Assembly (NCBI GenBank): GCA_030272155.1
Contig: CP126198.1
Span: forward strand, 2,232,001 to 2,296,000
Direction: 5' to 3'
Source of the DNA: Tetradesmus obliquus
Lineage: Eukaryota > Chlorophyta > Chlorophyceae > Sphaeropleales > Scenedesmaceae
DNA: 64,000 nucleotides
How positions within the stretch are numbered: position 1 is the first letter of the stretch; every line of letters begins with the position of its first letter. This document shows positions 318-55,500 of this stretch, piece after piece. The notes under the pieces were generated by a model. The model saw only the letters and a list, made by a program, of their open reading frames with translations. It ran no database searches and was not told the DNA's origin. Made by a program: the position numbers and the translations under genes.

Positions 318-1364
318 TTAAAAGGCCCACCTTGGCTCGCCCTGCCATGCTCCTCCAGCAGATTGCCACAGCCCCATCACATCATGGCGCGTGGCCAGCC
401 AGAAGAAGCCCTTGCTGCGCAGCACACCAGCCCAGGTCTGCGACAGTGCGCTGTCCAGCAGCCGCTGCGGGTGGAAGGGGCGCTGCAAAGCAACAACGGA
501 AATTTAGGCAAACACGCAGCCGGCATCGTCAACGTCAGCACAAGCAGGTGCAGAAGAGGCCTTTGGATCGGCGTTGTGTGCAGCAGCGCTTGCTCCAGCC
601 GTCTCTGCGGGTGGAGGGGCAGCACAAGAAGTGGCGGGTAGTGGCAAGGCGCGTGGCCAGCCAGAAGAAGCCCTTACTGCGCAGCACACCGTGCCAAGTC
701 TGGGACAACGCGCTGTCCAGCAGCCGCTGCGGGTGAAAAGGCCGCTGCAAGGGCAGCCATTTGGCAAATCAACAGCCAGCAAAGTCAGTGGCAGCACAAG
801 CAGGTGCAGAGGACGTTTGAGGGTCGGCGCTGAATGCAGCAGCGCTTGCTCCAGCAGTCTCTGCGGGTTCAAGGGCGCTGCAGAAGTGGCAGGTAGTGTG
901 GTAGTGGACGTGGCCAGCCATGTTCGAGCAGATGCATTGCAATGCATAGGTCAAAGGATTGTGCCTCCTGTACCCACCTGCGCAAAGTACACGAAGCTGC
1001 TGATGCCATACTTCTCTGCTTCACTTTCATGGCCATCATGTTCATGATGATGATGGTGATGATGATCGTGGTGCTTTGTGCCATCTGTTGCACAATCTGA
1101 TGCGCCACCTGCAGCCTCACTGCTGTGGTGGTGCTGGTGGTGCTTTGTGCCATCTGTTGCACAATCTGCAGCAGCATGTGCACCACCTGCAGCCTCACTG
1201 CTGTGGCTGTGGCTGTGGCTGTGCAGTGCCGCCTCAAAGCGGTTGATCTCCTGCAGCCATCCTGCTGCTGCCTGCGCCTGCTCAAGGCTGAAGCGCCCGG
1301 TGTGCAGCACCTCCTGGACCGGCACGCGGCAGTTCTGGGACAGCAGCACCTGAGGGAGGGCAAG

Positions 1365-1404
<40 letters not shown>

Positions 1405-3572
1405 CAAGCAGGGTGTTGAAATCAAGGGGCATGCTGAAGAGCAGCAGTTCTGGGACAGCAGCACCTGAGGGCAGGCATGCATGCAGGCAGGGTGCTCAAC
1501 ACACGGGGCGTGCTGATCTACCATGAGCCTGCAGAATACCAGGTGCTGCTGGCTACATAGTTCCCCCACGTGCACTTTGGCAGGCACAGCGCAAATAGTA
1601 CCTGGTTCAGCTGCATGTTGCTGTGCATATGCAGCTGCATGCAAAATTTGCCAGGTGACTGTCACACCTGCGGTGCTGCATCATGCACTAAGCTCTGCTA
1701 TGTCGTGCCACTTGGTGCGCACCTTTGCTGAAGGGTTGAGCTTGCGCAACAAAGCGCACAGCTGCTGCTGCTCTTGCTCCAACAGCAGGTCAATCTTGTT
1801 CAGCAGCAGCACATCAGCAAACTCAACCTGCGGGGCAGTTGCAGCAGCATGTCACAGCTTTTGCGAGGCAGTCACAGCAGCATGTAGCAACATCGTGTAC
1901 TGTTGCAAGTGTGTGAAGCAGCAAAACCGAAGCAGGATGTCTCACACAGCTGTACAGTGTGTTTTTCTGCTCAGCCAGCTGACCTGCAGTATTGCTGCCA
2001 ACGCCAAACCAACGACAATTCAGAGCAATCAGCGCTGGCCAGACTGTTCAGCTTTGACTCCAGTTCAAAATTAACAATAACAGTTTGACCGTTGACCGCC
2101 CCACCTGTTCAACCAGCAGGTCAGCCACTGTGCGCTCGTCATCATCATCTGCCTGCAGCTGCCGCTCCTGCAGAGACTCAGCTGCTAAAACATCGCTCAA
2201 AAATCGCTGGCCATCCACCACTGTTACTAACGTATCCAGCCTCGCAACCTTTGCCAGGCCTCCTAACCCACTTCCAGCTGCTGCTGTCACCTCCACGCTG
2301 CTGCTGCTGCTGTCATCTGCTGGCGCTGTATCATCTTCATCGTCCTCTGCATCTTCGTATGCAAAGGTTGCTGCAACTGGCATGGGCAAGGAGATGCCCG
2401 TGCTCTCAATCACGCAGCAGTCAAACGCCTGCGGTCAAAGTCAAACATGGGTGGTCAGGCAGGTGAAGCGCCACCACGCTTGCAGGAAAGCCGCCGAATC
2501 CTCTGGACACCATTGCAGCATCCCTCTCGCGCAAGACACCTGCAGCTCAGCGTGCACGCATGTTGCTGCACCAGCGCATCCACCACTGCATCACCACACC
2601 TCGACTATACTATACCATAGCAACATGACAGCAGCATTGAAACCAGACTTCCCGCACCTGTTGTGCTGCCAGGCGGCGCACTTCTCGCACCAAGTCCTCC
2701 CGTATGGTGCAGCAGATGCAGCCATTAGACAGCGCCACCAGCTGCTGCCCTGCCTGCTCCACAACAGCGCCCTGCAGCAACCGCTGGTCAATGTTTAGCG
2801 CTGCCATGTCGTTGACCAGCACCGCCACACGCTTGCCCTCCTGGTTATTCAGAATGTGTGTCAGCAGCGTGGTTTTGCCGGCACCTGGAAGTGCAGTGGG
2901 TGCAGATCGTGAGCAGAGAGGCGAAGCAAAAAGGTGAGCTGACATTGCTGCGCTTATTGGCAGTTATACAGGATGCACGCTGCTGGTTCACTGCAAGTTT
3001 CGCCGCTGCCACAACCGAACTGTGCTGGTTTCTGGCTGCACGACTGTTACTGCACCTGTTGAACAGCATGTGGTGGGTTGCATCAGCTGCTGCTGCGGTT
3101 GCGCTGTACGAAGCTTCACGCCGAACTTCATACTTGCAGGAAGCGCACAAAGCACGGTGCGCAGCGATGCACGGCTGAAAACAGCATGCCAGCCTATCCC
3201 CAGTCAGACCAAGTTTCACTCACCCAGAAACCCAGAGATGACAGTCACAGGCAAGCGCTGCAGGCCCTGCAGGGAGTCTTCAGCTGTGTTCTCTGCTGCA
3301 GCTGCTGCTGCAGCTGCAGTGGGAAACGTACTCCTGCTGCCCTGGCTGTTGGCGCTGCGGTTCATGTTGCTGCTGCTGGATGAATGCAAATGCCTGTTGG
3401 AAAAAGCCATCGTCCGTGATGCTTTCCTGTTGAGCTGTTGCTGCGCACATATCTGTGGCAGGCTACACATGGCATGGCAGGCGTGCATGCTGTGCAGCAG
3501 CCTGAGCTGCTGATGCAGAGGCTGCTGCTGGCAGCAGCAACGTAGCTGCTGTGTTGCTTTGCACGCCAGCAT
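318..3572 (-). CDS. COG0523/CobW-type GTPase (ZNG1-like metallochaperone)
   Basis: Minus-strand gene; proposed exons 3572-3224, 2884-2658, 2428-2105, 1827-1723, 1349-978 and 482-318 (513 aa, phases close). Residues 1-110 are Ser/Arg/Ala-rich and could be an organelle transit peptide. Walker A GFLGAGKTT is at 114-122, the family metal-binding CXCC motif (CICC) at 172-175, ESTG at 200-203, an acidic/Ser insert at about 217-235, Walker-B-like VTVVDG near 253-258, and NKID (guanine binding) at 310-313. A His-rich stretch (runs of HS and HH) follows from about residue 378, then the CobW C-terminal domain ([20 protein letters not shown]). The family delivers Zn or other metals to client proteins using GTP; the His run suggests zinc. 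The client is unknown. Odd: the last exon exists in two complete copies (744-535 and 482-318), both with an acceptor and a stop. I chose the second because it continues with [11 protein letters not shown] as in the family. Start is the first in-frame ATG; the next is MAFSNRH downstream. Confidence 0.85.
535..744 (-). repeat. Alternative copy of COG0523 last exon
   Basis: A second copy of the last exon sits between exon 5 and the copy at 482-318. It has its own TGCAG acceptor, begins in the same phase with [17 protein letters not shown], keeps [11 protein letters not shown], then diverges and stops at 535. Partial copies of the exon start recur near 881 and 619, so this is a tandem array of roughly 125-140 bp steps. 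Splicing to this copy would give a protein lacking the usual DVMGLW tail. Confidence 0.75.
1364..1408. repeat. GGCA tetranucleotide microsatellite
   Basis: About ten copies of a GCAG/GGCA unit in intron 4 of the COG0523 gene, just upstream (minus strand) of the exon 5 acceptor. Confidence 0.9.
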
Positions 3573-11054: not shown

Positions 11055-11064
11055 GTGGTGGCTG

Positions 11065-11170
11065 GCTGGTCAAACAGAGCTGGTGGGTCAGCCAGAGCTG
11101 GCAAGTCAAACACAGCTGGCTGGTCAACGCAGCTGGCTGGTCAAACACAGCTGGCTGGTCAAACTGAGGA
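11065..11170. repeat. AGCTGGCTGGTCAA minisatellite
   Basis: Short tandem units of roughly 18-20 bp (AGCTGGCTGGTCAAACAC and variants) begin about 10 nt after the TZF stop codon, in the presumed 3' UTR. Confidence 0.8.
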
Positions 11171-15970: not shown

Positions 15971-17963
15971 ATGGCTGAAGTCGTGAAGCTCCTCACGCAT
16001 GCTTACACGGACTTCCTTGTACATGGACACATACCTCCCACCGATGTGATCAAGCTGATCATCAGCAAGGTAGATGCCACGGCAGTGGCGAAGGGCTGAG
16101 CAGCACAGCAACCAATTTTCAGGCAGTACTCACGCTTTGCGTGCCTGCAGATGCTAGGATACGGCATTTTGCTGTTTTCAACGCTGGTGAAGCTGCCACA
16201 GGTGTGTGCACGGCCAGGGTTAGGGCCATCAGCATGCAACAGCAGTACTGCCAGTGCGCGTGGTGTAATGCATAGAGCAGTACTGTACTCTAGAGTAGGG
16301 TGCAGATCTGCACTAGACATGTGTAGAAGCACAACAGCGGTCAGATAGGTAGGACCCTAGCATCTAAAGCTGCACAAGTATCAGGGCATGCTGGCACTGA
16401 CCAACTGCTGCAAGCATTACAAGTACGCAAGCCGTTCGCAGTGCCTGGAACCATGCTGCCACTCGTAGCAGACCACTGCTCCTCAGAGCACAGACACCGC
16501 ATGCCCTTGTCCACACGCACCTGTCGCTCTCTTGCCCCGTGTAGCATGCTCTAACCTTTCTAACCCTCCTTCCCCTGGCTGTTCCTGCAAGCAGGTGGCA
16601 AACGTGCTGCGTGCACACAGCGCAGACGGCCTCAGCGTAGTGTCCTGCGAGCTAGAGACATGGGGCCTGCTGGTGCACACAGCATATGGCTACCTGAAGG
16701 GCCTGGCTTTCAGCACATATGGCGAGGCATCCATCCTGTTTGCGCAGAATGTGCTGCTGCTAGCGCTGATTTACAAGTACAACCGCATGCCGCTGTCTCG
16801 CCGGCTGGCTGCGGTCATACTGCTAGGAGGTGCCATTGCTGCTGTGCTCACTGGTGAGCAGTGTACAGTACAGTACAGCACTGCAGCAGCTGCTGCAGGC
16901 AGCCGGCATGCCACCAACACCGGCAGCAGTCACTGCTGGCAGCAGCACTAGCACGGTGTGTTGGCAGAAGCAGCATCTGGCAGCATGCCACTGCTTGATT
17001 GGCAGGTTGATGGTGTCGAGCAGGGCGGGATGTTGTCTCCATGCACAGGCTGTATGACACCCATCCTGATTTGCATGCCTGTGTATGTGCCCGACACTCA
17101 TGCTTTTGCGGCCTCCCTGTGTCCGCTCGCTGCAATTCACATTTGCTTTTTAAAACTGCCCATGCATAAACAGCAATTTTGTGTCACTGCAAGCACCTAA
17201 GCTGCTTGCCTGCTTGCACCCGCTCGCTCCCCTTCAAACCGCCCCGCTGCAACGCTTCCTGCAGGTCACGTGTCCATGGCTCTCATCAGCCACGCGTATG
17301 ACCTCAACAACATCATCCTCATGAGCGCACGGCTGCCGCAGATATTGCAAAACTTCAGCGCCCGCAGCACCGGGCAGCTGAGCGTGATCACGTATGCAGC
17401 AAACACTCTGGGCTGCGTGGCGCGGCTGTTCACAACCATGCAGGAGGGCGGCGGCAGCGCCATGTTCCGCCAGTACTGCATCAGTGAGTGGCATAGCAGC
17501 TGCGGGCGTGGTTGTATAAGACCGAATCTAGACACCCACCGGGTTGTGCTGCTGCTGCGGTTCAGCAGGGTGGCGTGCGCGCGTGCATGCTTGCTTGTCT
17601 ATCTGATGCAAGGAGCGATGGCAGTGTCTGCATTGATTGTATGACTGTGGATTGCATGTGTTGCTAAACACTCATTCTCCTGCAATGTACGATGCATACT
17701 GCGTGTAGTTCACCTCTGGTGCCTTTCCGGCGCTGCGCAACATGCCTCAAGAGGGTAGTTGGTGGGGATCGCTTGCCAATGTTTACACATCTCAGCAACT
17801 TGGTGAGACTAGAAAGTAAGTACTGATTACTGCATTGCGTTGTTGCTCTTTCACGCTGCCTGCAGGCCTGGTGCTGAATGGCATCCTGGTGACGCAGATC
17901 CTGGTGTTCGGCAACAAGGGCGTGGCACCAAAGAAGGCCAAGCCGGCAGCCAAGCGGGCGTAA
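15971..17963 (+). CDS. MPDU1: Mannose-P-dolichol utilization defect 1 (MPDU1/Lec35), PQ-loop protein
   Basis: Exons 15971-16069, 16151-16201, 16595-16853, 17265-17483 and 17866-17963 give 241 aa in one frame (human MPDU1 is about 247). Two PQ-loop motifs are visible: STLVKLPQ at residues 43-50 and MSARLPQILQ at 156-165, with the family GLSVVSCELET between them and YKYNRM, TTMQEGGG further on. Seven hydrophobic segments are expected. MPDU1 is an ER membrane protein required to use dolichol-P-mannose and dolichol-P-glucose in N-glycan, GPI and C-mannosyl synthesis. The tail is Lys/Ala/Pro-rich (KKAKPAAKRA). The start ATG has an ACC context. The 3' flank repeats the tail sequence (separate entry). 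Confidence 0.93.
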
Positions 17964-18115
17964 GCAGCACGAGAGATGGCCCAGCCAGCAGCAAAGAGGC
18001 GTAAGCCAGCAGCAAAGATGGCGTAAGCCAGCAGCATAGATGGCCCAGCCAGCAGCACAGATGGCCCAGCCAGCACCAAAGAAGGCAAAGCCGGAAGCCA
18101 AGAGGGCGTAAGCAA
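17935..18115. repeat. Minisatellite derived from the MPDU1 coding tail
   Basis: Units of about 20-22 bp (AGCCAGCAGCAAAGATGGC-like) run from the last codons of MPDU1 through the stop and about 150 bp into the 3' flank. The coding tail KPAAKRA is itself one unit. In the flank, units drift between AAGCCAGCAGC, GCCCAGCCAGC and AAGCCGGAAGC forms. Confidence 0.8.
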
Positions 18116-28509: not shown

Positions 28510-28688
28510 GCGCAGCGTGCATAGGCATGCAGGGTGTTAGCAGAGTCAGTGGTTGCTGCGGTGAACACACGCAACAAGCAGCAGGTGTGCACACGCAACA
28601 AGCAGCGGCAGCAGCTGTGCACTGCACCATGCAACAGATCATATGACAACACCATATACAGCTGATGCTGTAGCTACAGGTGCATGTT

Positions 28689-29532: not shown

Positions 29533-29599
<67 letters not shown>

Positions 29600-36273: not shown

Positions 36274-38111
36274 CTGTATGTTTGCCTGGAGTGCCACTGT
36301 ACAGTGAGGGCAACACCTGAACAGCAGCGGTGCGTGCAGGAAATACAGCAACACATGTGTTTGTGTTTCCTGCACGCACTGCTGCTATTTAGACGTACAA
36401 GCTACGATGTACACTGGTCACTGCTATATCAGAGTTGCTGCTGGCTTTCCCTAATCCTAGTGTGCTGACAGGCTGTGCTGACAAATGACTCACTCTTTCT
36501 GCTACTCTCTGCAGGTGCTGTCTGTTGCCGCCAGCCGCCATTCCCTGTTTGTAACAGCTGACGGTGTGTTATTTTCCATGGGCCCCAACAACAGCGCAGG
36601 GGGTGGTGGGCATGGCAGCAAGCCGCTGCTTGCATCAGGGCAGCTAGGCAGGCCTGGAGGGACAGCTCCTGCTGCTGTGCTGCTGCAAGATGCAGCATTA
36701 CCAGAATCAGCAGGTGCAGCAGGTGCCGCAGCAGCAGCAGCAGTAGGAGATAGCCAGCTGCCTGGCAGTGCAGTAGTGCAAGTTGCCAATGGAAGGTACC
36801 ACAGTGTGGCTGTCACTGCGGACGGCAGTGTTATAACATGGGGTTTGAATGACTGGGGACAGCTGGGCCGGCAAGTGGCGGACAGCTCATTTGATTCGAG
36901 CGCAAAGCTGCACAGGCGATCAGCGCTTGAGCAGCAGCAGCAGGCAACTGCTAGTAACAGCAGCAGCGGATCCGCAGCAGCAGCTGCGAGCAGCAATGCA
37001 ACCAGCAGCTGCGGCCATGGTTGGTCCTGCCACAGTGGCATCCCCAGCCGAGTCACTGAGCTAGCTGGCGTCAAGGCAGTAGCAGCAGCTGCTGGCCGCT
37101 ACAGCACGATTATTCTTGATGAGTCAGGCCAACTGTGGGTGTGGGGCTATGATGGTTGTGCTGGGGGCCAGCTGCCGGAGCAAAGGGAGGCCTGCAAGCC
37201 CCGCAAAGTTGCAGGACAGCTCGCCAACAAGCAAGTGGTAGTGTTTGATGTGGGTGAGTATGCTGTATTGTTGTATATGTATACTAGGACTAGATGGTGG
37301 CTGTGCCGGCAGCGAGTGAGTGAGGGTTGAGCGCAGTGTTGATGTAGAGGCGCAGCAGGCTAGCGTGGGCTATCTGTGCAGCGTCCAGAGGGTTGTAGGC
37401 ACCTGACAGCATGATGGCTGTGCTGGAGGGCCAGCTGCCGGTGCATGGGGGGGCCTGGAGGCCTCGCAGAGTTGCAGGGCAGCTGGCCAACAAGCAGGTG
37501 GTGGCATTCGACGTGGGTGAGTATGCTGTATGCTAGTGATTTGATGGCAGCTTTTGCGGCAACGGGCGAGGGTTGAGTGCAGCACTCTTGTTCTTGATGA
37601 GTGAGGCCAGCATTGGGTGTGGGGCTATGACGGCTGCGCTGGGGGGCAGCTGCCGGTGCAAGGGGATGCCTGGAGGCCCCGCAGAGTGGCAGGCCAGCTC
37701 GCCAACAAGCAGGTGGTGGCTTTCGATGTTGGTGAGTATACTGTTGGCAGAAGGCGAGCCACTACCATGCCCGCCACTCCCTGCAGCTGATGCATGACAG
37801 CACCTGGCTGTCACTGCGTGCGAGGTTCGCTGCATGCTGACGTGCTGCTGACACTGGCGTCATTGTTGCCACTGCTGCTGCTGCTGCTGCTGCTAGGGTA
37901 CACCTTCTGGCTGGCTGCCACTGCTGATGGGCAGCTGTATACATGTGACAACATGGATGATGGATATGCAGGTGCGCGGCGGCGTAGCACGACAGGCGCA
38001 TGTGCCTTGGTGTAGCCTACTCTCCTGGTAATTAAGACGTGTGCTTCATGCCCGTACATGGGGTTTGTTTGCTGAGTGCAGTTGATTATCTATTTATGAA
38101 CAGAGCTGAGT

Positions 38112-38142: not shown

Positions 38143-40091
38143 CACACTGCCTCAGAAGCGGCGGCCGAACCATGCAGGGCAGCTGGGGCGGGCAGGTGCG
38201 CAGCTAGCCAGCCCTCCCCCATGATGAGCATCAGCAACGTGTTATTGTGCTCGAGTGTGTCAGTGCGCTGCTATCGGCCCAGCTCACCAGAGCCCGGCAA
38301 GTCTGTGGCGGGTGCCAAATCAGTGCATCATCACCCAACGCAGAGAGTGCTGCACTGCTAGCAGCAGGGCTTGTGTAGGTGCTTCACTCATCGTCATGCT
38401 GTCTGCGTCTTACAAAGGTAGGATCGTACATGCTTTGCGCCAGGTCATCGCGCAGTGCCTCCTGCTGTTCTTGCCTGCTACACCCTGCCAGGGACCCCTC
38501 ACCAGCCAGCCACAGTGGACAGCCTCACACCCCGCATCACACAGTTCCCACAGATGACACACTGAAAAAAACGCCATTGTAATCTTCAAGCAGAGCACGA
38601 AGGTTGTAAAGTAACAATTGTAATCTTCAAGCAGAGCACGAAGGTTGTGCCAATCATGTGGTACTGCCTTGTGCCTGCCGCCCCTGTACAGCCGCCCCTC
38701 GTCGGCCTGGCAGAATGGACAGCCTCACACCCGCCTCACATCTGCGCACATCCCGCAAATGACATGCATTGTGCGGGTCATGTGATACTTCTTTGTGTCC
38801 GATGCCCTTTTGCAGGCACCCCTCACCAGCCTGGCAGGGTGGACAGCCTCACAGCCCACCGCATCACAGCAGTAGCAGCAGGCAGGGAGCACGCGCTTGC
38901 AGCTACATCTGAGGGCCAGCTGTTCAGCTGGGGCAGCAGCAGGGCAGTGCTGGGCAGAGATGGGGAGGCTGGCTTGCCTGGCTTAGTCAAGGGGGCACTG
39001 GCTGGCAAAGCAGTGAAGCATGTGGCAGCAGGAGAGGTGCGTGGCTGGTTGATTTGATGATAGGAATGCCTTGGGTTTGTGCTGGTTGTGGTGCAGCGAC
39101 TGCGGTTGTGCGGTGCTTGCTGCTGTGTTTCCTGTGCTGGGCAGAGATGGGGAGGCTAGCTTGCCTGGCTTGGTGGCGGGGGCACTGGCTGGCAAAGCGG
39201 TGAAGCACGTGGCAGCAGGAGAGGTGCGTGGCTGGGTGATCTTTTAATCACAACGCCTTGGGTTTGTGCGTGTTGTGGTGCAGCGGTTGCGGGTGTTGCT
39301 GTTGTTGTATGTGGCTGCTGTGGGTGTGGTCGACCGCTGAGCATGTGCTTGGGCTTGTGGCGGGGGCAATGGCCTGCCAAGCTGTGAAGCATGTGGTAGC
39401 AGAAGAGGCGTGCGGCTGCATGGGGCACGCTTGGCCTTTATATGCTGTGGTCAAGCAGTTTTGATGGGAGCTGTTGTGTGTTGCTTGCTGTCGTGTTGCC
39501 CGTTGCAGGGCAAGGGCCAGCTGTGCTGTGCATGTGCTTGTACTTGTGGTGCCACACATCTTGTGCCTGCCTGCCTGCCTGCCTGCCTGCCTGCGTGCTT
39601 GCAGTACTTCTCGCTCGCTGCAACCGATACCCAGGTGTATGCATGGGGCAGCAACGCCTACCTGTGCCTCGGCACAGGCAACGCCTCACTGGCGGAGCTG
39701 CTGCAGCCTGCTGCTGTATCTGGGCCTTTGGGTGGTGGCAGCTGGCAGATCCATGGCTTGATAGCAGGCTACCAGCATGCATTTGCAGTAGCAGACAAAC
39801 CAGGAGATGAGGAGCTGCTGCAGCTGAGGCAGCAGAGCAGCAAAACAGCGGGGTCTGCAGGCACAGCATTGGGCAGTAGTGCGGCGGGTAGTGTGGCAGT
39901 GTCGCAGCAGGTCAGTGGTGGGTCTGGGGTTGCAGGAATTGAGGTGATACTGACAGAGAAGCAGCGGCGGGAAAGAGAGAAGCTGCAGAAACAGCAGCAG
40001 CAGCAGCAGCAGCAGCAGGCTAGCCTCTCTGTGGCGCCGCAGGGAGCTGCGTCGCCAATGCCAACAGCAGCAACAGCAGCACCAGCAACTG

Positions 40092-43336: not shown

Positions 43337-46300
43337 ATGTCACAGCTGGACACCACCTTTGAAGACATTGACGCTGACCTGGATGCGCTGCTAAACCAGG
43401 TGGGCAGCATGAGCTCCTGCAAGCAGCGCCAGCGATGCTGCCAGGCCCACTGTACCAGTGGATCGCTGCTGCAGCAATGAAGAACATGATCAGCAGGGTT
43501 ATCACGCTTGGTAACATCGATCTCCCCTATCTGCAGGTGTTTACTCTGCTTGGCTGCCATTACTTGTGTGGTGGACCCAACTCTGGCTTTCCTGCAAGCA
43601 CTTACACCTCTTGTGCCTACCTGCCCTTTTGCAGGATGAGGCCATGGAGGATGCACCTGCCAGCCAGCCACCAGCGAAGGTCATTGAAGCCCCAGCAGCA
43701 GTCACAGAACCCACCACAGACATCCCTATGCCTGATGCTGCTGAAGAGGCAGAGACTGCTGCTGCTGCCAAGGCCCACCAGGTGACAGCAGATGACCTGC
43801 AGGAGGTGAGCACGCTGCCAAGGTGTCCTGCAAGCATAATTTGCAACCTATGCAGGCTGGAGGACAGCTGTGCCGGCTTGCAGGAGCTTCCAGGTGCTTG
43901 CAGGAGCTTGCAAGAAGCATGCTATCTGGTTGCAGCACAGCAGAGCATGCCTTATCTTTTCTGCTGGATTCATGAATTTCCATGCTGTGTGCTGAGAATG
44001 TGGTGATGCTGCTGCTACTGCCAGCAGCCTGCTGCTGCTTGCGATGCTAACCTGTCTCCTGCAGTGCCTTTCCTGCAAGCTGCTATTGTTGCGGTTGACG
44101 CACAACAACCATCCCAACTTCTCCTGCTCCTCCTGCTACTGCTAATCAGCAGCCGTTGCTAATGATTGCCTGCCTGCTGTTGCCGCAACTTAATTTTCCT
44201 GCAGCCCGCCAAGCTCGCCTCTGGCGGCCCAGCCAAGCCCGCCATCGGCTCCAAGAAGCGCCAGCTCACAGTGCCCAGCGTGACCATGCCACCAGGAGGC
44301 AAGCGGCCCACCCTGAAGGTGCAGCAGGTGAGCGCACATGCGCGGAGAGCCAAACTACTGCTAGAGGATCATTGCGCTGGATGGAGGCTGTGAATAGGTG
44401 CATACCTGCTCTGTTGCATGCCAATGGCGCCCGCCACAGCGATGAGTCACTTGATTCCTGCTGTTACGGCTGCTGCTTCTTTCATGTGGACAAGCATGCC
44501 AGCCTGGTGCATGAGCTGCTGCGGGTGCTCCCCCCACTTGTGCTTCAGCAGGCACTTCCCTTGTGCCGCTGCTCTTCACCAGCATATCTGACATGCCTCT
44601 TTGTGCTGCCGCTTCGCAGGCCAGCACTGCCCCAGCCAAGCCCGCCACTGTGTCAGTCCCCGCCCCGCCAGCCGCAGCTCCCTCTGAGACCATCACCGCA
44701 ACAACAGAAGCAGCAGCAGCAGCACCAGAGGAGTCCGAGGCATCCTCTCCTGCAAAGCTCCCCAAGCCCTCCAGCCCTGCTGCTGCAGCAAAGCCTGCAG
44801 AGGAGGCTGCTGCTGCAGCAGCAGCAGCTGATGAGGATGAGGAGGTGACAGCAGCAGCAGAAGTGATGAGCAGCCTTGGGGAGCTGACTGAGCAGCTGGC
44901 AGGTGCTGCCTCAGATGCAGAAGAGGACAAGGAGGCAGATGCGGCATCGCCCAAGAAGGCAGCGGCACCTGCAGCGCCGGCAGCGCCAGCGCGCAAGAAG
45001 AAGGCACTGACGGTGGCTGCAGCTCCAGCAGCAGGTAGGCGGTGCTGTACATTGCGCTGTCTTTGTCTGCCTCCCTCCACTTTCATATGCTTTCCCAGAG
45101 ACGCTGTGTGCTTTTGTGCAGGATATTGCATGATATTGCAGAGTTCCAGTGCAGTTCTCCGCCTCCGCTGTACACAGCTGTGTGACGCATATTTGCTGAG
45201 TCATCAACGTGTGCCTGCCGTTTCTCCTACCTCTGCAATGCCTGCAGGCGCTGCTGCCGCCAGCAGCACCCCCGCAGCCCCCAAGGCCAGCAAGCCCAGC
45301 AAGCCTGACAAGGAGCCCAAGGAGAAGAAGGAGAAGGCAGCACCAAAGAAGGCAGCAGCAGCAGCTACTGCAGGCGGCGAGGCTGATGGCCCAGTTGGAA
45401 AGCTGCCAACCGCCAAGTCCGCCTACATGCTGTTCGCAGATGACAAGCGCACACAGGTCAAGGGTAAGTCAGCGCTGCAGAGGGTAGGTGTGTGGCACTG
45501 CGCGTCTCTTTGTGGTGGCTGCGTTGCATTTGTTGTCCTGTTCTGCATGTGTGTTGAGCTTGCAGGATGGGGTACAGGCGTGTGCTACCACAAGTCGGCA
45601 GCCTGACCTGCTTTTTTCCAGCTGGCAGGAGCCCTGCATGGCACCCCGCACACCTCCTGCCTCGGCTTGCTGCTCAACACTCCTGCACTCATCGCACTTC
45701 TCTACAGCAGGCGCTACGCCCAGCCCTCCGCTGCTGGCAGACCCCCTGCTAACCACCCTACCGCTGTCCTGGCACAAACCGTCTTAGCCCCTGCTGGCTC
45801 ACACCTTTGCTGCTGCAGCAGACCACCCTGAGCTCAGCAAGCAAGCTGTTCAACCATTCCACTTTGGCAGTAGCCAGCCGCACCAACACTTTGTGTTGAG
45901 CCACATGTGCCTGCTGTTGCGCTGCTGCAGCGGACCACCCTGAGCTCAGCTTTGCCCAGCTGTTTGACCGTATCATGCTGCTACTGCGTGTTGATCTACC
46001 TGTGCCGGCTGTTGTGCTGCTGCAGCGGACCACCCTGAGCTCAGCTTTGCCCAGCTGTTTGACCGTATCATGCTGCTACTGCGTGTTGATCTACCTGTGC
46101 CGGCTGTTGTGCTGCTGCAGCGGACCACCCCGAGCTCAGCTTTGGCGAGCTGGGCCGCAAGCTGGGCGAGCTGTGGAAGGCGCTCAGCGAGGAGGAGAAG
46201 ACCGCATACAACGGTGAGGCGCTATGCAGGGCATTCATGCGTTACAAAGCATCACATCGATGGGACAGTTGTCTGCCAGGATGACACACGCGTGGGGTTG

Positions 46301-49300
46301 CAAACTGGCGTCCTGCTGCACAACCTGTTCCATGCGGTACACCGCAAGCCTAGTACTTCATGTAGCGCTGGCTCTGCTAACCCAGTACTGCTGCCTCTGG
46401 GCTGTTTCCTCCTGCAACCCTTTGCACCCCCTGCAGACCGCGCTGCTGCGGAGAAGGTGCGCGTGGCCGCAGAGATCGCTGCCATGGACCAGGGCCTGGT
46501 GGCTCAGCTGAAGGCAGCCAAGGGCAAGAAAGGCAAGAAGGACGGCAAGGCAGCGGCAGAGGAGGAGGCTGCAGTGGCGGCGGCAGAGAAGAGTGAGAAG
46601 AAGGAGAAGAAGGAGAAGCGGAGCGAGAAGCAGACAGAGAAGGACACAGCCAAGTGAGTGTGGCAGCAGCAAGCTGTTGCTGTGATGTGTTGCTGTGTGT
46701 GTTGCGATGTACATGATCCTGCAGCAGGAGGAGCAACCCAGGCAGCGCAGCTGTTGCTGCAATGCTGAGCTTGAACACAACTCTATGCTGTTGTACCTGA
46801 AGCCTTCGTGCATGCTGCTGCTGCTGCTGCAGGGCTGAGAAGAAGGCTGAGAAGGCAGCGGCCAAGAAGGCGGAGAAGGAGAAGGCAGCCTGGGAGTCTG
46901 GCGGCAAGAAGGTGAGCGCTACAATCAAACAGCCAGTGATGATTCCCTGTGTGCTTGAGGCGCAGGCTGGCTGTTATGCTCAACTGCCTTGGCATCTACA
47001 CTATCTGCACTGCTGGTACTGCGTCATGCATACTGTGGCATGTGAGCTGGCACCCCTGCTTGCAACCAACAACGCTCTGTGCCACTTTGTAACTACCAAC
47101 CGTGCATCACCTGGCCCTGCCTGCCTGCCTGCCTCACTGCCACGCTGCGCAGATGCACCACCGGCAGCTGTTTGTGCAGACGCGCGTGAAGCACCCTGCC
47201 ACAGACATCGCAGGCATCAACACCATCATCAGCCAGGCCTGGGAGGCGCTCACGGCAGAGGGCCGCGAGCAGTTCTGCAAGCAGGTGGGCTTGAATATTC
47301 GTGTGAGGACAGTAAGAACAGCAGCATGCTCAAGTGCAACAGCCAACCATCATGCTGCGGTGCACCTGTAGTGGCCGGTGCCTGGGTGCTCTGTTGGCAG
47401 CAGCGGTGCTGAATGCTGGCCTGATTCTGCCTGATAGCCACGTGGCCTGCAGACGCAAATAGCAACGTATCAGGTCCGTCATTTGCGGCGTTTATGCTTC
47501 ATGTGGTTTATTATTTGCTGCTGCTGCTGCTGCTGCTGCTGCAGGCTGCTGAGGAGGCAGAGGCAGACAAGGCGCTGAAGGCCAAGCGCGCGCCCAAGGT
47601 GCGTTATTCAGTGGCATAATAAGTTTTGTTATCTTGGAGACGGCTATCTGGGTGGCACTGTAGCAAAACAGAAAGGCATGCTGCTTACAGCTTTGCAGGT
47701 ATGCCCTGCCTTGCTCAACTGCCAGCTGCGCATGCTGTTGTGGCAGCTGCATGTGCAAGACACAGCAAGCAGGAGTTGCAATCTGTCACACATCTGACAC
47801 ATACCTGACTTGCCGTGGGCAGGCTGCTGCCAGCGAGGCCGGCAGCAGCAAGGCTGGCGGCAGGGCCAGCAAGCGCGGCAGGAAGGCGGCAGCATCGGGT
47901 GATGAGCAGGAGAGCAGCGGCGAGGAGGCTGCTGCAGATGACGGCGAGGAGAGCGACAGGGAGGTGAGCTGGCGCTGCTGTGTTGTGCTTGGAATGTGTG
48001 GTGTACAATGTGTCGTGTGGGCGGTGAATGTGCAGGACCGCAAGAGTCGTCTTGCGGGGCTGGTGGGTACCATTGGAAGATGCTGTTGGCTGGCGATTGT
48101 GTATGCACAACAACACCGCGCACGGCGCTTGTGCAGTGTGCGTCGCTTCTTAAACATCTGCTTTGTTGATGTGTCCTGCGCCTGCCTGCATGGTGGCATC
48201 ATATAATACGTTTTGCATCGGCGGCACATTCTAAATGCTAATATCTATTGCACTTTGCAGGACGTGGACTGGAGCGAGCACCCTGCTGCAGGCGTGTTTG
48301 CACACAGCACTGGCAGCGATGGCCGCCAGCTGCTGATGGTGCGCCGCGCGGGCTGCGGGCTGGATGACTACGGCACTGTGGACGCGCGCCAGGTCAAGCG
48401 CGCACGCATTGAGGGTGAGCGGCGTGTCTGAAGTTGTGTTGTGTATTGTCAGTGGATGCTGGTACCGCACCATGGATGCGCGCCAGGTCAAGCGCGCGCG
48501 CATCGAGGGTGAGCGGCACAGACTTGGGCTGAATGAACTGAATGTTACCCGTGCTAGTACTATTGTACACCACTGCCTTGATGTTTGTTGCTGGCCCAGG
48601 CACGCTTGATGTTTGTTGCTGGCCCAGGCACGCACACATGGTGCGCGAGCAGGCTGGTACTGCTCGAGTCACCCTGGTGCTCTGACTTGCTCACTATCAG
48701 GCGTGGAAGCCTGGTGAGTGCAACACCTGAAAGCTGCATGAAGCTAACCATGATATGTCTGTTGTGCCGGTGCTGTGTATGTGCATGCTTACAGGTGGCG
48801 CTGCTGACCTGCCCGTGTCGCCAGAGATGGTGGAGGAGTATGACCAGGTGTGGGCACATCCACGACTTCATTTGTGAAGTTGCCTGTGCGGATGTATGCT
48901 GTTGATGTGCAGCTGTTGCGTGTCCGGCATGCCATGTGCTGCTGCGTGCACGGTGCCATACTATCACAACTGCAGTGCCTGCACAGCTCAGGAAGCACCA
49001 TCGTGCAGGTTTAGTGGCAAAGTCGATGATGCGTCTGTCAAATTTGCCTTCAAACCCCTAGTCACCTCTCTTGTGCTGCTGCTGCTGCTGCTGCTGCTTG
49101 TGTGTTGAAGTTTGTGCACCGCTTCTGGGTGGCAGTGCGTGCGCGCACCAGCCGCAACGAGCTGGACCTGGAGGGGCTGGAGGAGGGCAGCCCGCTGGAG
49201 ATGTGCTACCTGCTGGGTGAGTTTGAACTGTGTTACTTTTGTGTCGGTTCTGGTTGTTGGTTGGGTAATGAGCTGGACCTTGATGGGCTGGAGGAGGGCA

Positions 49301-50230
49301 GCCCGCTGGAGATGTGCTACCTGCTGGGTGAGTTTGAACTGTGTTACTTTTGTGTCGGTTCTGGTTGTTGGTTGGGTAATGAGCTGGACCTTGATGGGCT
49401 GGAGGAGGGCAGCCCGCTGGAGATGTGCTACCTGCTGGGTAAGTTTGAATTGCGTTAGTTTTGTGTCATATCTTTACTGTGGTTGTGGGACGAGCTGGAC
49501 CTGGAGGGCTGGAGGAGGGGAGCCCGCTGGAGGTGTGCTACCTTCTGGGTGAGTATGAACTGTGTTACTTTGCTGCTGAATGTTCACTGCTAGCTGTGTG
49601 TTATGTGAATTAAGTAGGGTCGTGCGGTGTCAGCTTGCTCTTGTCGACGGTCTTCAGCAGAACTCTCCCACTGTCATCCCCGCGCCTATTGCCACACTAT
49701 GCTGACACGTCTTGTGCTGGCTCGCTGTGTTGGTGCTCTGTGTTCATCCCGCTGCCCTGCAGGCAAGCTGCAGGAGCCTGGGCAGATCCTGGACGCCAAC
49801 GACAAGGAGTGCAAGGGCAAGGACAAGAAGGACTTCATCATCAGGTGCGGCTGTCTGGAAGTGCATGTTAAGTTTTTGTCCAGATATGTCTGCCAACTCG
49901 CAGCGTATGCATAACAGTAGCAAGCTATCTGAGCTGATTGTTCCGCATTGTGTGGATGCACTGCTGCATGGACGGGGAGCAGCTGTGCTTCTAGGCACAG
50001 GCGCCGGCTCACCTACAAGCAAGGCTCAACCACTAACATCTGCAGTGCATCATCGTCGCTGCACTGCCTCTGCTGCTGCCGGCAGGTGCCCCGGGCTGAA
50101 GCTGAGCATGGTGGTGCAGCGGCTGCTGGACCAGGAGCGCGCGCAGCTGCAGCAGCTGGCACGCAAGGTGCAGGGCTGCACTAGCCTGGATGAGGCTCAC
50201 GCGGCTGCAGCAGGCCTGGTGGTGGAGTAG
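43337..50230 (+). CDS. Two-HMG-box chromatin-type protein, 16 exons
   Basis: Exons 43337-43399, 43635-43805, 44205-44327, 44620-45034, 45248-45463, 46121-46213, 46437-46653, 46833-46911, 47153-47284, 47545-47598, 47823-47963, 48261-48414, 48795-48847, 49111-49216, 49763-49844, 50086-50230; all phases close (747 aa). N-terminus is acidic (MSQLDTTFEDIDADLDALLNQ start), then Ala/Pro/Lys-rich. HMG box 1 (about 315-380) reads PTAKSAYMLFADDKR, ADHPELSFGELGRKLGELWK and LSEEEKTAYN. After a Lys/Glu tract (KSEKKEKKEK) a divergent second box has HHRQLFVQTRVKHP and IISQAWEALTAEGREQF. The C-terminal 240 residues (DVDWSEHPAAGVF, VHRFWVAVRART, LEGLEEGSPLEMCYLL) are not recognised. HMG boxes bend DNA and act in chromatin or transcription in the nucleus; the precise role is unknown. 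Three separate splice-junction arrays and a terminal-segment array lie in or after this gene. Confidence 0.85.
45809..46150 (+). repeat. Four-copy acceptor array before HMG-box exon 6
   Basis: The acceptor GCTGCTGCAG and the first ~20-30 nt of exon 6 (CGGACCACC...GAGCTCAGCTTTG) occur four times. Exon-like starts are at 45819, 45931, 46026 and 46121 (steps 112, 95, 95). The 95-bp units are nearly identical. Only the last copy is followed by the rest of the HMG box. The 95-bp step is not a multiple of three, so use of an earlier acceptor would destroy the box. Confidence 0.92.
48462..48520 (+). repeat. Echo of HMG exon 12 donor end
   Basis: The last ~40 nt of exon 12 (GGACGCGCGCCAGGTCAAGC...GAGG) and its GTGAGCGGC donor are repeated 94 bp downstream. 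True donor 48415, echo donor 48509. Confidence 0.88.
49158..49556 (+). repeat. Four-copy, 111-bp donor array in HMG exon 14
   Basis: The end of exon 14 (LDLEGLEEGSPLEMCYLL) with donor GGTGAGTTTGAA is repeated four times. Donors are at 49217, 49328, 49439 and 49549. The first three are 111 bp (37 codons) apart and the reading frame stays open through the third donor, closing at 49456-49458. Donors 1-3 therefore give the same phase to exon 15. Confidence 0.93.
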
Positions 50231-51138
50231 CCGCAAGGTAGCTGAGCAGCAGCATTGGCAGTATGCTTCTGTGCTGGGGTTCTGTTGCAGCAGCTAGCAC
50301 AAGGTGCAGGGCTGCACCAGCCTGGAGAAGGTGCAGGCGGCTGCGGCAGGCCTGGTGGTGGAGTGATACGGCACAGCAGCATTAACAGTATGCTTCTGTG
50401 CTGGGGTTCTGTTGCAGCAGCTGGCACGCAAGGTGCAGGGCTGCAGCAGCCTGGAGAAGGCGCATGCGGCTGCGGCAGGCCTGGTGGTGGAGTGATAAGG
50501 CACAGCATTTGCAGCATGCTTCTGCGCCAGATCTTTGATGAGCAGCTAGCGCAAGGTGCAGGGCTGCACTAGCCTGGAAGAGGCCCATGCAGCTGCAGCA
50601 GGCCTGATGGTGGAGTGACAGCCTGCAAAGCAGAATTGGCGGTATGCTTCTGTGCTGGGGTTCTGTTTCAGCAGCTGGCATGCAAGGTGCAGGGCTGCAC
50701 TAGCCTGGAGCAGGCTCACGCGGCAGCGGCAGGACTGGTGGTGGAGTAGTCAACGCAACAGCATTAGTAGCATGCTTGTGTGCCGAGTTTCTTCAGATGC
50801 AGCAGCTAGCGCAAGGTGCAGGGCTGCAGCAGCCTGGAGGAAGCTCATGCGGCTGCGGCAGGCCTGGTGGTGGAGTGATGGCCAGCGCAGCAGCATTGAC
50901 AGTATGGTCCTGTGCTGGGGTTCAGTTGCAGCAGCTGGCGCGCAAGGTGAAGGGCTGCACCAGCCTGGAGTAGGCCCACGCGGCTGCGGCAGGCCTGGTG
51001 GTGGAGTAGTCGACGCAACAGCATTTGGAGTGTGCTTCTGCGCTGAAGTCCTGTTTCAGCAGCTGGCACGCAAGTTGCAGGGCTGTACCAGCCTGGAGAA
51101 GGCTCACGCGGCTGCAGCAGGACTGGTGGTGGAATGAC
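50150..51138 (+). repeat. Eight-copy array of the HMG gene's terminal coding segment
   Basis: The last coding segment (QQLARKVQGCTSL...AAAAGLVVE, stop) recurs seven more times after the true stop at 50230. Unit starts are about 50150, 50288, 50415, 50540, 50669, 50800, 50929 and 51057 (steps 125-138 bp). Most flank units carry a pyrimidine-rich stretch ending in GTTGCAG or TTTCAG directly before CAGCTGGC, i.e. an acceptor-like site, and end in GGTGGTGGAGTGA or GGAGTAG. Entering through these sites from the exon 15 donor would give a different frame from the true C-terminus. Confidence 0.93.
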
Positions 51139-53206
51139 AGCCGGCACAGCAGCATTGACAGTCTGTTTGTGCCAGGTTTCTGCTTCAGCTGCCAGAAGAA
51201 TTCGTGCTGTGACGGCGGCTGCTTGCATGCAGCAATCATATGTGGCGTGGATCTGTGGTGGCCTGCTGCTGCAGTGTCAGTGGGCATTGCTTATTGCTAT
51301 GTTCGCTGCAGGTCATGGCAGCTGCCACACACTGACAATGCGATGACACAGCATCTGCTGACCGGAACCATTAACTCGCGACTGACGGCAGGGCACAGGG
51401 CTGCTGATGATTGCAAGCTTCTTTGTTTGTGGCATCTGTGTGCCCTTTCCTTGCCCTAGTGTTGATTGGCCTGTGTGGCGAAGGCCTGGGGGACGCCGGC
51501 TTGCTGAGGACTGCAGGCCAGCGCATTACTGCTGATATGCTGCAGCCAGTTTGTGCTGCTGTGGGCTTGACGGCTGTGCAGGGAACTGCGCTGACTACAT
51601 CATTGTTCCCTGTTCAGAAACTTGGCATAAGGCATGTTGATTGTGATCAGCTTCTCTGGTCGACCTTGACTTTTAAAGTTTGTACGTTTTGAGCGCGTCT
51701 GGATTGCATGCATACGTGTCGTGTGGTGTCTCACAGAAGATATGTTATTTGCACCATGCGAGTAGTTTTGATTAGGCACTATGACACACATTATCATGCA
51801 CGTGGCTGGCGTCACGCTGATGAGCGATTGTGATGCTGGGCCGCACATGGCAAGGACGATACCTGAAGTGACCAACTTTGCAGCATGTGTGGATTCACGA
51901 GCTGCATCTTGCTTGTGCAAACAAATCAAACAGCACGCTGCATCATTGACTGCAAGCGTACTGACTGGATCCTGTGACCTGCTATTGAGCTTCTTTGCAT
52001 TGTATGTGTGAGCGGGGCCGGAGGATTGTCGCTGCACTCCATTGATTTTTGCAGGCACACTGCTGCACTCAGACAAGCTGTGGCCTTGCCCACGTTCCTG
52101 CTTGTATGATAGGGATGAGGCTGCTTGTAACAACAAGAATCGTGCCAGTTTTGTTAAAAGCAACAGCTATGACGGTCTATGAGCAGATCTTGTCTTGTAA
52201 CAAGTTCGGCTTGAAGCCAAGAGCAGTGCCTGACATGCCACCTGCCCTGGCTACAGGGTCGGCCCAAGCATTGGATATCCTGGCCAGCGCCTGTCTGAAC
52301 AGGCCAATGCTCGGGAGTCGTTTGACGTCTTATGACTGGACTCTTCGCTGGTTCCTGTGAAATGGCGGTAGATATTTACTGCTTGAACTCTGTCTCCAGC
52401 CTCGAGACTGGTGAGCCTCACAGTGAGCGGCTCACTCGACCCACTAGCTAGGCCTGAGCTCATGGAAGAAGCAGCTGGCGGGCGATTTCTTGCCCTAGAA
52501 GCTGAATAGAGTCGTCCAAGAAGTGTTGTAGCGCTGTGAGATGAGCACCTGGCGTCACACCCGGCCTTCAGGCTGAAACTGAACGAGCTCACAACCCTAG
52601 TAACTGGTTGGCAGTGTTATGTCTCGAGGATATGAAATTGCCTTGCTTGCAGTCGTTAATCTTGCCTTCAAACTCCAACAGCAACTTGTTTGCCTTTCAC
52701 AGCAGATGCCGATAACTCTAGTGAAGGTTTGCATGGTAGTTGCTGGCGATGTTGCAAGTCAAGCTTGGTAGCGAGTGATTTTGAGTCTCAACCGTTTTCC
52801 TGTAGCCAATAAATCAGGGTAGGCGCTGCACGAGCACACTGTCCCCACACGGAATGTAGTTTCAAGGAGCCTGTGCAGGTGGGTGTTGCCTAGCCTAGTG
52901 CTGAGGCCGTGATCAACCCGTTCATTGTGTTTTATCACCAATTAAAATGTTGAACGTATGCAGTTTAAGGCTACAGCCCAATCCCTCGTACCTCCTACAC
53001 TAGTCATGTCGAACGGCCGTTGCGAAGTGTTGAACAATGCTGCGTGTGCTTCTGCATACGCAGGTGCATAATCAACCCAGCAGCAACAGCACTACTGCAT
53101 GCACGGCACAAACAGTTGGACCCCTTGCAGCATGAGCAATGCCCAATGAGCATCCGAACAACAGGCACGCACCACGCCTGGTAGCAGCGGCATTGATACT
53201 TTTGCC
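51139..53206. other. Intergenic region, HMG gene to Gln-rich ORF
   Basis: Mostly TG-rich spacer on the left, then more even base composition. TGTAA motifs near 52113 and 52197 are candidate poly(A) signals. No coding domain recognised on either strand. Confidence 0.4.
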
Positions 53207-53988: not shown

Positions 53989-54032
<44 letters not shown>

Positions 54033-55393
54033 TTGGTTGGGGGCTAGGCAGCACAGCATGCAGTCTCAGCTTTGAAAATCATGCAGCGCTGTTCCGCAGC
54101 TCAGGCCGTGTCAGCAGTGCCTGCAACAGCTTCAGTCCTGCAAGCACTGCTGAGGAGCCCACCCTGGCAACTTTCCTGCAAGCACAGCAGCTCCAGCAGC
54201 AGCAGCGTGCGCAGATTGCCAGCGCAGCAGCAGCATTGCAGCTGCAAACTAATCGCTGCAGCAGCGGCGACGGCATGCGGTTGGCTGCCCTTCAAAGTGA
54301 GGACTCCATGGGCAGCAGCAGCAGCAGCGGTGGCAGCAGTGTCGGTGCTGGGAGCAGGACAAGGCGCAGCAGCACCAGCAGCAGCAGCGCAGGCACAGGG
54401 TTCTTTCTCCCCTGCAGATGGCGCAGCAATGCAGCACCTGACGGCAACAATGGCAGCACCAACATGATGGCCAGTGCAGGGGCAGCAGCGGCGTGTGGTG
54501 CTGTTGGCACGGTGCACTCCGTGCATGGTGGTGGCGCTGTAAGTGCAGCACACTATCTGCTGCAGCAGCAGCAGCAGCAGCTGTCGCCGGCTGCACCTGC
54601 AAGCAAGATGCACAGCTGGGAGCTGCAAGGCTCCACCCACCGCTTGACAGCCAGCAGCATCATCAGTACGGAGCAGCCCAGCTGCAGCAGGCTCGTGAAT
54701 GGTGGTGGCGTGATGAGCACAGCGCATCATCCGCAGCAGCAGCAGACAGCTGCTGCACCTGCAAGCAGCATGCAGAGCCCAGAGTCGCAGGGATCCGTGC
54801 ATCGCTCGACCACCAGCAGCGTTGTCAGCATGGAACAACCCAGCTGCAGCAGGCCCACATCAACTGCCAGGTGCAGCCTCGAGCAGTCACGCAATGGCAC
54901 TTTATTGCCAAACAGCACTGCTTGTGGCAACAGCCCAGGCCCTTTGACCACCTCTGGTGCTGACCTTGTTGGCAAGCCTAGCTTGCCAGCAGCAGCAGCA
55001 CCCAATACAGCTGCGGCGAGGCCGGCTGCCGTCATCTACTCTGGCGATGGCAACTTCCTGTCAGACAGCCCGCCCTATGGAGACAGCGCAGGCCCTTTGA
55101 CCGCCGCTGCTGCCATCGATGATGTTCGCAGGCCTGGTTTGCCAGCAGCAGCAACACCTGGCACAGCTACTGCTAGGCCGGCTGCTGTTGTTGTGTACGC
55201 TCCTGCACCACCCACATCAGCAGCAGCAGCAACAGCAGCAGCAGCAGATGGTGCAGTGCCGCGCGCTGCACCTGGCTGGGCAGCTGAGGGGTGGGACCCC
55301 AAGGCTCAAGTGCAGCAGGTTATGAAGACAGGTGGTAAAAAGGGCACTGGTGCATTCATTCCCCCTGGCTGCATGCTGCTGTGTGATGACTAA
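53207..55393 (+). CDS. Gln/Ser/Ala-rich single-exon protein, unknown function
   Basis: Uninterrupted 728-codon frame starting at ATG in a GCCATGG context. Not recognised. Starts MDIARFSTGQHLGTGWGSHL; residues about 145-195 and 265-275 are Gln runs (CAG tracts, the longest about 53989-54030), with Ser/Gly-rich stretches between. Two similar blocks of about 55 residues near the C-terminus contain NSPGPLTTSGADLVGKPSLP and DSAGPLTAAAAIDDVRRPGL, each ending ARPAAV. The end, KGTGAFIPPGC, is the only motif that looks conserved. Gln-rich algal proteins of this kind are often transcription cofactors or RNA-associated, but that is inference. Part of the C-terminal coding sequence is repeated in the 3' flank. 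Length and start argue for a real gene, although repeats alone can keep frames open. Confidence 0.6.
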
Positions 55394-55410
55394 GCAGCGG
55401 CTGTGCCTGG

Positions 55411-55500
55411 TGATGAGTCAGCAAGGTCAAGTGCAGCAGGTCATCAAGACAAAAAGGGCACTGGCGCATTCATTCTCCCCGGCCTCCTGCTAGGCACTGC
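55411..55500 (+). repeat. Echo of the Gln-rich ORF C-terminus after its stop
   Basis: About 75 nt (TCAAGTGCAGCAGGT..AAGAC...AAAAAGGGCACTGG.GCATTCATTC.CCC) repeat the last coding segment (55305-55385) some 120 bp downstream, beyond the stop at 55391-55393. Confidence 0.85.

Follow-up and report, generated by a model that had tools for sequence, protein, structure and literature searches.

Why do the ends of exons, splice signals included, recur inside neighbouring introns in one gene after another? The question is raised by a stretch of 64,000 nucleotides from Tetradesmus obliquus, a scenedesmacean green alga (C8:2232001-2296000 of the OEZ86 assembly, 104.66 Mb in 17 contigs), which we call the window. 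A sequence-only reading of the window had described, in at least six genes, short exon pieces straddling a donor, an acceptor or a stop that are copied in tandem into the next intron or the 3' flank, and had tentatively attributed these copies, here called echoes, to a recurrent process that favours exon edges. The observation is confirmed and extends beyond the window. The genome has many local duplications, most of them offset by 95-300 bp, and exon-intron junctions hold more than their share.

Local duplications in the window and beyond

We analyzed the window together with 20 loci of 10 kb at fixed positions (L009-L028), two of which flank the window, giving a sample of 264 kb out of 104.66 Mb. 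Self-alignment with microsatellites masked (offset 21-1200 bp, at least 40 aligned bases, E <=1e-4) yielded 91 clusters of local duplications, 18 in the window and 73 in the loci, compared with 0, 0 and 0 clusters in three order-3 Markov simulations. This bears out the idea of a recurrent process acting in many genes. Five of the 20 loci (L009, L010, L011, L015 and L025) had no clusters, and neither did L030, which was fetched later with L031 (0 and 2 clusters; neither counts among the 91). These six empty 10-kb stretches indicate that duplication density is very uneven along the genome. At the other extreme, positions 1-6013 of L024 (C16:1000001-1006013) hold two long arrays, one extending over 3.9 kb with offsets of about 274-279 bp and the other over 1.9 kb with offsets of about 345-351 bp; in both, a small exon is predicted repeatedly, in step with the array. 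Two L024 clusters over 1500 bp were left out of the class counts, which therefore use 89 of the 91 clusters.

The duplications have a preferred size. The smallest offset per cluster was below 96 bp in only 2 of 91 clusters, fell at 107-127 bp in 28 and did not exceed 138 bp in 47, with a tail reaching 785 bp; a looser search returned 101 clusters, none of them with an offset of 20-60 bp. Tandem Repeats Finder (TRF) did report shorter periods (71 arrays at 13-29 and 14 at 30-89), which confines the gap in offsets to longer copies. Multi-copy clusters made up 36 of the 89, and the spacers of high-identity two-copy pairs were dissimilar. The echoes had been said not to form one repeat family, and this held for the two units that we searched genome-wide: one matched itself alone and the other matched itself and one paralogous exon, in a search that skips very common words.

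Gene structures discussed here are predictions of a self-trained hidden Markov model gene finder applied to the window and the 20 loci. It reported 474 exons, 260 of them confident (log-odds at least 8, length at least 36 nt), with a median intron of 218.5 nt. Five gene products of the window have Pfam backing, with one match each to CobW/CobW_C, PAP2_C, PQ-loop, TECR_N/Steroid_dh and HMG box. The gene finder also made recognizable errors, calling echo copies of HMG exon 14 and of the HMG terminal array exons and ending the COG0523 gene at the window edge. By these models, 45 of the 89 clusters contain only the edge of a confident exon, 14 contain a whole confident exon within a copy and 30 are without a confident junction.

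Excess of duplications at exon edges

To compare exon edges with other positions, 40-nt probes were searched for a copy at offsets of 60-400 bp in the 19 loci that remain when L024 and the window are left out. A nearby copy was found for 45 of 149 donor edges and 32 of 134 acceptor edges, compared with 5 of 86 mid-exon, 15 of 188 mid-intron and 4 of 146 intergenic probes. With hits merged within 400 bp, donors exceeded mid-exons (p=1.4e-4) and mid-introns (p=1.5e-5), as did acceptors (p=0.0045 and p=0.0016, respectively). Leaving out the two loci flanking the window as well gave a similar picture in 17 loci (donor 39/134, acceptor 27/121, mid-exon 3/74, mid-intron 12/171, intergenic 4/132), and random-locus controls gave 0 or 1 match per class across all 21 sources. 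In the window alone the counts were 10 of 56 for donors, 8 of 54 for acceptors, 4 of 32 for mid-exons and 3 of 77 for mid-introns; edges exceeded mid-introns there with p=0.015 (donor) and p=0.05 (acceptor), or 0.09 and 0.16 after merging, but were not significantly above mid-exons. The comparison with mid-exons and deep introns called for by the sequence-only reading favours edges outside the window and, as regards mid-exons, not within it.

Some edge excess is expected in any case, because exon-anchored pairs decay more slowly and duplications inside exons are purged. We therefore simulated uniformly placed two-copy duplications of the observed unit lengths, each with a constrained copy and a neutral echo, and put the simulated DNA through the same detector and the same gene finder before classes were compared. 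Over three age ranges, the simulated neutral clusters were 30-34% junction, 29-32% intron-only and 29-31% intergenic. The 89 observed clusters comprised 59 with a predicted junction, 12 intron-only, 10 exon-only, 3 intergenic and 5 mixed, and the odds ratio of junction to intron-only clusters relative to the simulation was 4.2-5.3 (p 2e-7 to 6e-5). Retention of neutral echoes is thus an insufficient explanation for the junction share, and the claim that exon edges are favoured holds also against uniform neutral duplication. Slower decay of exon-anchored pairs was rejected as the full cause, since the simulated detection rates, 0.48 for donors and acceptors and 0.37 for introns, differ too little. 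An earlier and cruder test with randomly shifted clusters had pointed the same way (junction in 57 of 91 clusters, 45.9 expected, p=0.005). The excess was strongest in multi-copy arrays, 30 of 36 having a junction inside. Where a cluster has a single junction (37 clusters), the unit takes in a median of 58 exon nt at donors and of 60 at acceptors, and the ratio of exon part to unit departed from the simulation (Kolmogorov-Smirnov p=0.01).

Two age classes of echoes

Selection retaining extra splice sites had been suggested as one cause of the echoes. For most copies our results lend this no support. Two-copy echoes retained the donor dinucleotide GT in 14 of 18 cases (13.5 expected from local identity) and the acceptor AG in 5 of 7 (5.1 expected). 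In multi-copy clusters retention was 17 of 19 for donors (14.2 expected) and 21 of 22 for acceptors (16.3 expected), but there the gene finder may pick among copies. Divergence over 45 pairs was 0.133 in exon and 0.209 in intron portions.

Ages of echoes are inferred from identity, and pairs were classed by the similarity of their intron flanks only. In the younger class, 14 pairs with alignable introns, 41 synonymous and 66 non-synonymous differences give a synonymous fraction of 0.383; a constrained exon paired with a neutral echo should give 0.382. These copies drift as neutral DNA while their intron halves can still be aligned. In the older class, 18 pairs with unrelated intron flanks, 72 synonymous and 46 non-synonymous differences give 0.61 versus a neutral 0.40 (P=2e-6), and the two classes differ from each other (p=8e-4). 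A first look at 45 pairs had given 160 synonymous to 218 non-synonymous differences (0.423 versus 0.390, p=0.10), and all 62 pairs give 299 to 330 (0.475 versus 0.393 expected). The synonymous excess was first noticed post hoc, most pairs in the retest are the same, and the older-class tests overlap heavily in pairs. For the main test, a pair needed at least 25 exon columns and an echo that the gene finder had not called an exon; the flank-similarity and synonymous analyses also draw on pairs from L004, L007 and L029, and the latter on L031 too.

The conserved block in older pairs ends close to the splice consensus. Among 10 older donor pairs, which include one stop that the gene finder mistook for a donor, identity was about 0.9 in the exon, 0.80-0.85 from +1 to +6, 0.45 from +7 to +10 and 0.28 beyond; in older acceptors (8 pairs) it was 0.88-0.94 from -6 to 0 and about 0.25 before -15. 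Of the two-copy pairs 17 of 28, and of the array pairs 10 of 27, combine similar exon ends with unrelated intron flanks; the simulations gave 6 of 51 and 7 of 37 for two-copy pairs. The exon-limited identity and the synonymous bias together indicate that exon halves outlast intron halves and have evolved like exon ends. Older copies give the appearance of having been retained as exon ends, and they could for this reason supply material for new exons.

Echoes in individual genes

All of the sites named in the sequence-only reading were found again by reading, alignment or catalogue search (Table 1). The exception in kind is the C-terminal tail of the PQ-loop (MPDU1-like) gene, which turned out to hold a low-complexity repeat rather than an exon-edge echo.

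Table 1. Positions in the window of exon-edge copies and related repeats.
Feature	Position	Strand	Offset, period or remark
COG0523 (CobW) predicted exon, master copy	331..482	-	peptide as in OEZ86_014278
Echo of start of exon 331-482, with TTGCAG acceptor, in preceding intron	600..760	-	offset 262
COG0523 acceptor edge (exon 5 of the sequence-only reading), master	1329..1356	-	aligned
Echo of COG0523 exon 5 acceptor edge	1444..1471	-	offset 115
PQ-loop (MPDU1-like) C-terminal tail, 21/64-bp low-complexity repeat, weak case	17925..18116	+	aligned
Echo of PAP2_C exon 3 end, ending gtaag	33223..33295	-	offset 117
PAP2_C gene exon 3, last 68 nt and gtgag, master	33340..33412	-	aligned
RCC1 gene (label of the sequence-only reading), exon end and donor, several copies	37102..37744	+	offsets 262, 478
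RCC1 gene (same label), exon end and donor copies	38973..39512	+	offsets 187, 371
HMG exon 6 acceptor and first ~30 nt of HMG-box exon, repeated upstream of used acceptor	45808..46152	+	period 95/112
HMG exon 12 end and donor, master	48381..48422	+	aligned
Echo of HMG exon 12 end and donor	48475..48516	+	offset 94
HMG exon 14 end and donor, four copies	49156..49598	+	period 111
HMG terminal coding segment and stop, eight copies by reading (7.8 by TRF)	50144..51276	+	period ~128
Gln-rich gene, predicted exon end, copied once	55274..55491	+	offset 125

Our hand-read model of the HMG gene takes the first donor, the last acceptor and the first stop, and deposited protein OEZ86_014287 (P0241) matches it at 100% over the query; the extra copies therefore lie outside the deposited coding sequence. 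P0241 also confirms the used acceptor of the HMG-box exon, which starts at 46121, downstream of an array with 2.7 copies of period 95 (TRF) and one more diverged copy. In the terminal array the annotated copy encodes Asp at a position that is Glu in each of the remaining seven and in the other T. obliquus protein. Two exon-14 echoes show the opposite sense, with Asp where both T. obliquus proteins have Glu. Such single-residue comparisons, here and below, concern cases picked since the proteins were at hand.

In the COG0523 gene, the exon at 331-482 had been described as a duplicated last exon. It is indeed echoed, and it is not the last: the gene continues to the left of the window, into L027, where the true last exon (8958-9326, C8:2230958-2231326) has its C-terminal segment and stop echoed 260 bp on. 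The echo at 600-760 differs from exon 331-482 by 9 synonymous and 3 non-synonymous changes and codes SQTWHG, matching OEZ85_014005 of the second T. obliquus assembly, OEZ85; its His is that of the OEZ85 protein, the OEZ86 exon having Ala and more distant relatives Gln or Gly. The echo after the stop in L027 likewise has Gly, as do OEZ85, P0124 and P0125, where the OEZ86 exon has Ala. The deposited OEZ86 protein uses one copy. A COG0523 paralogue (L007, C6:1176440-1179634) has several further exon-edge echoes, one of which spans 57 exon nt with one synonymous difference and dissimilar intron flanks.

The PAP2 echo differs from its master by 6 synonymous changes and 1 non-synonymous change, and the intron flanks are unrelated. 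A paralogue on C14 (OEZ86_008792) is nearer to the echo (score 94) than to the annotated exon (82). Polarised by this alignment, five differences fall in the annotated exon, all of them synonymous, two fall in the echo and one is undecided. The single amino-acid difference of the echo, Ile, is found also in relatives P0002 and P0003; P0004 and both T. obliquus exons have Val. Our PAP2 model is 96% identical to OEZ85_014019, a protein which has one copy and from which the echo differs at two residues. In the C14 paralogue (L029, C14:4349001-4351500) the corresponding exon is echoed at both acceptor and donor, and the exon after it is covered by an array, with copies separated by (CTG)n/(CAG)n tracts. 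The echo breakpoints of the paralogue differ by eye from those in the window, so the two sets look independent.

Other repeats were seen in the window. A 76-bp stretch at 36317-36392, in the predicted RCC1-sulfotransferase gene, matches its own reverse complement at 85% and is a potential hairpin. A 462-bp (154-codon) duplication at 24008-24883 lies wholly within a predicted 2.3-kb exon, so the protein would contain an internal repeat. A block encoding MTQAVADRLGLQRQPL recurs in a single predicted gene through a duplication of about 1.5 kb at 27568-29828; the C-terminus of this gene looks RING-like by eye.

Possible origins of the echoes

The explanation that we favour, while giving it somewhat less than an even chance of being right as a whole, is that tandem duplication is frequent and hidden by splicing, and that the edge excess comes from the persistence of older exon halves through homogenisation or occasional use. 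Its base layer, frequent local duplication with the extra copy hidden by splicing, is well supported. An echo would start as an ordinary tandem duplication taking in about 60 bp of exon and about 60 bp of intron. Splicing would pick one site of the resulting pair, the first donor or the last acceptor, and at a gene end the first stop would serve; with one site of the pair in use, the protein would stay as it was and the extra copy would end up in intronic or 3' flanking sequence. The echo's exon half may then remain recombination-competent with its constrained partner, through gene conversion and unequal exchange, the latter of which could also build arrays, and a minority of echoes may be used as alternative exon ends. 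For these reasons the exon half would long outlast an intronic duplicate, and this longer persistence would make exon edges stand out.

Several results weigh against this explanation. Gene conversion alone does not predict the synonymous excess. Alternative use alone does not predict survival of splice dinucleotides at the neutral rate (14/18, 5/7) and fits poorly with the deposited proteins, so neither component is complete; moreover, no general in-frame route to the use of echoes was found, several offsets not being multiples of three. The simulation produced two-copy duplications only, and in two-copy clusters alone the junction excess is weaker (29 junction and 9 intron-only of 53; odds ratio 2.7-3.4, p 0.001-0.02). 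Persistence also leaves unexplained the scarcity of offsets below 95 bp and the position of the junction near the middle of the unit. Finally, young clean duplications (identity at least 84%, aligned over at least 0.8 of the unit) lie at junctions in 7 of 10 clusters, which points to biased formation rather than persistence.

Biased formation, in which the duplication machinery itself acts at junctions and produces units near 115 bp, about 58 bp of them exonic, for instance by paired nicks or by template switching at a junction-centred feature of chromatin, transcription or splicing, is the strongest rival on account of the characteristic unit length, the mid-unit junction and these young clean clusters, and we regard it as a serious possibility, if not a probable one. 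Paired-nick repair reportedly yields tandem duplications in plants (Schiml and colleagues). The near absence of offsets below 95 bp, the clustering at 107-127 bp, the departure of the exon/unit ratio from simulation and the junctions inside most arrays all agree with it. On the other side, detection limits account in part for the minimum size of the exon part, the junction clusters include a single young clean case of two copies, duplications occur inside exons (10/89) and introns (12/89) as well, and the short-period arrays reported by TRF limit the size gap to longer copies. The sequence-only reading had considered local re-replication, template switching or reinsertion linked to transcription or splicing; the characteristic unit length suggests a specific mutational process but does not link it to transcription or splicing. 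Biased formation could be combined with retention: junction-centred duplication may maintain a standing pool of exon ends at about 1/4-1/3 of the sampled splice sites, of which most decay while a minority, held by constraint on coding and splice sites, become new exon ends. We consider this possible, though not probable. If true, new exons and splice sites would have a source acting across the whole genome, with all ages present in one genome.

The remaining alternatives appear less probable. That echoes are generally functional, retained through use as alternative exon ends or alternative last exons, would account for conserved blocks that stop at the edge of the splice consensus in pairs with unrelated flanks, for synonymous-biased differences, for the nearness of the PAP2 echo to the C14 paralogue and its Ile shared with P0002 and P0003, and for the two COG0523 echoes carrying OEZ85 residues (His in the echo of exon 331-482, Gly near the C-terminus). 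It is nevertheless unlikely, as two-copy splice dinucleotides survive at the neutral rate only, the younger class is neutral, the deposited OEZ86 HMG and COG0523 proteins and the OEZ85 PAP2 protein have one copy, and the relative P0004 has Val, not Ile, at the PAP2 site. The same COG0523 residues could instead mean that the copies diverged before they met, through exchange between haplotypes or strains or through misassembly of two haplotypes. The older-class differences do resemble those between strains, being synonymous with unalignable introns, the PAP2 model and the OEZ85 protein are 96% identical, and synonymous differences per exon column show no detectable variation among 12 older two-copy pairs (chi-square 9.3, 11 degrees of freedom, p=0.6). 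However, misassembly would not be expected to yield arrays of three to eight diverged copies or offsets that follow a common distribution, and the PAP2 echo departs from the OEZ85 protein at two residues, making this origin very unlikely. Least probable of all is plain chance: tandem duplications falling at random in a genome that is dense in genes and has short exons and introns, followed by neutral decay only. Simulation does place 30-34% of clusters at junctions regardless, and the window alone has no significant edge excess over mid-exons. Against this reading stands the simulation run through the same detector and gene finder, in which intron-only and intergenic clusters are far better represented than in the observed sample with its 59 of 89 at junctions, and so do edge probes that are significant outside the window.

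Comparison with known systems

In tandem exon duplication and mutually exclusive exons, an exon is copied next door, with the exon conserved and the intron diverged in older pairs. The T. obliquus cases differ in that they mostly copy part of an exon and one splice site (the 45 edge-only clusters, with a whole confident exon in 14 of 89), and in the genes checked (HMG and COG0523) the deposited isoforms are without the copy. Minisatellites have head-to-tail units of 10-100 bp; 36 of our 89 clusters are multi-copy, but offsets are mostly above 95 bp and the spacers of high-identity two-copy pairs are dissimilar. Introners or other transposable elements were rejected for the two units searched genome-wide, which are not dispersed (other units were not searched and very common words were skipped). 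Intragenic duplication crossing an exon-intron boundary describes 59 of the 89 clusters, as judged by predicted junctions, and the HMG cases agree with the deposited protein.

Related cases are on record. In a potato RdRp gene, a tandem duplication across an intron-exon boundary made a new intron (PMC4974935). There too a local duplication runs from an intron end into the exon that follows, and splice signals are copied; it concerns a single gene, in which the copy turned into a new intron by recruiting a donor. In T. obliquus, many genes are involved, at donors, acceptors and stops, and the extra copy lies inside an old intron or in the 3' flank in the genes checked. The same paper cites work of Rogers, Hellsten and Gao-Lynch, including the Rogers/Hellsten model of intron gain by duplication of an AGGT-containing exon segment (via PMC4974935). 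That model shares with our cases a tandem duplication whose protein effect is hidden by splicing; in the model, the new intron has the length of the unit and exon copies at both ends. Intron gain of this type was rejected, an intron length matching the offset within 2 nt in 3 of 91 clusters only. Intronic tandem repeats concentrate near intron-exon junctions, in Chlamydomonas and Volvox above all (PMC3887541). These are green algae with intronic repeats toward intron ends, as here, but the account given there deals with short motifs and does not mention exon-end copies with splice sites. A search of PMC9860276 for tandem duplications and scenedesmids returned nothing, and among the titles and abstract openings listed we found no description of genome-wide exon-edge echoes. 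The earlier statement that no named system resembles this one thus holds for the scale, whereas a single boundary duplication (PMC4974935) and crowding of repeats near junctions (PMC3887541) are both on record.

The kind of event is therefore known and its scale is new. Exon-edge duplications are usually met singly, so that debate on the origin of new introns, splice sites and exon ends has had few examples to draw on. A single 105-Mb genome now appears to contain a great many echoes, at all stages of decay and with a characteristic size, and this combination of decay series and size should make mutational bias, neutral persistence, gene conversion and co-option separable. It also carries a warning for annotation, as T. 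obliquus introns often contain exon look-alikes, many of them with intact splice dinucleotides.

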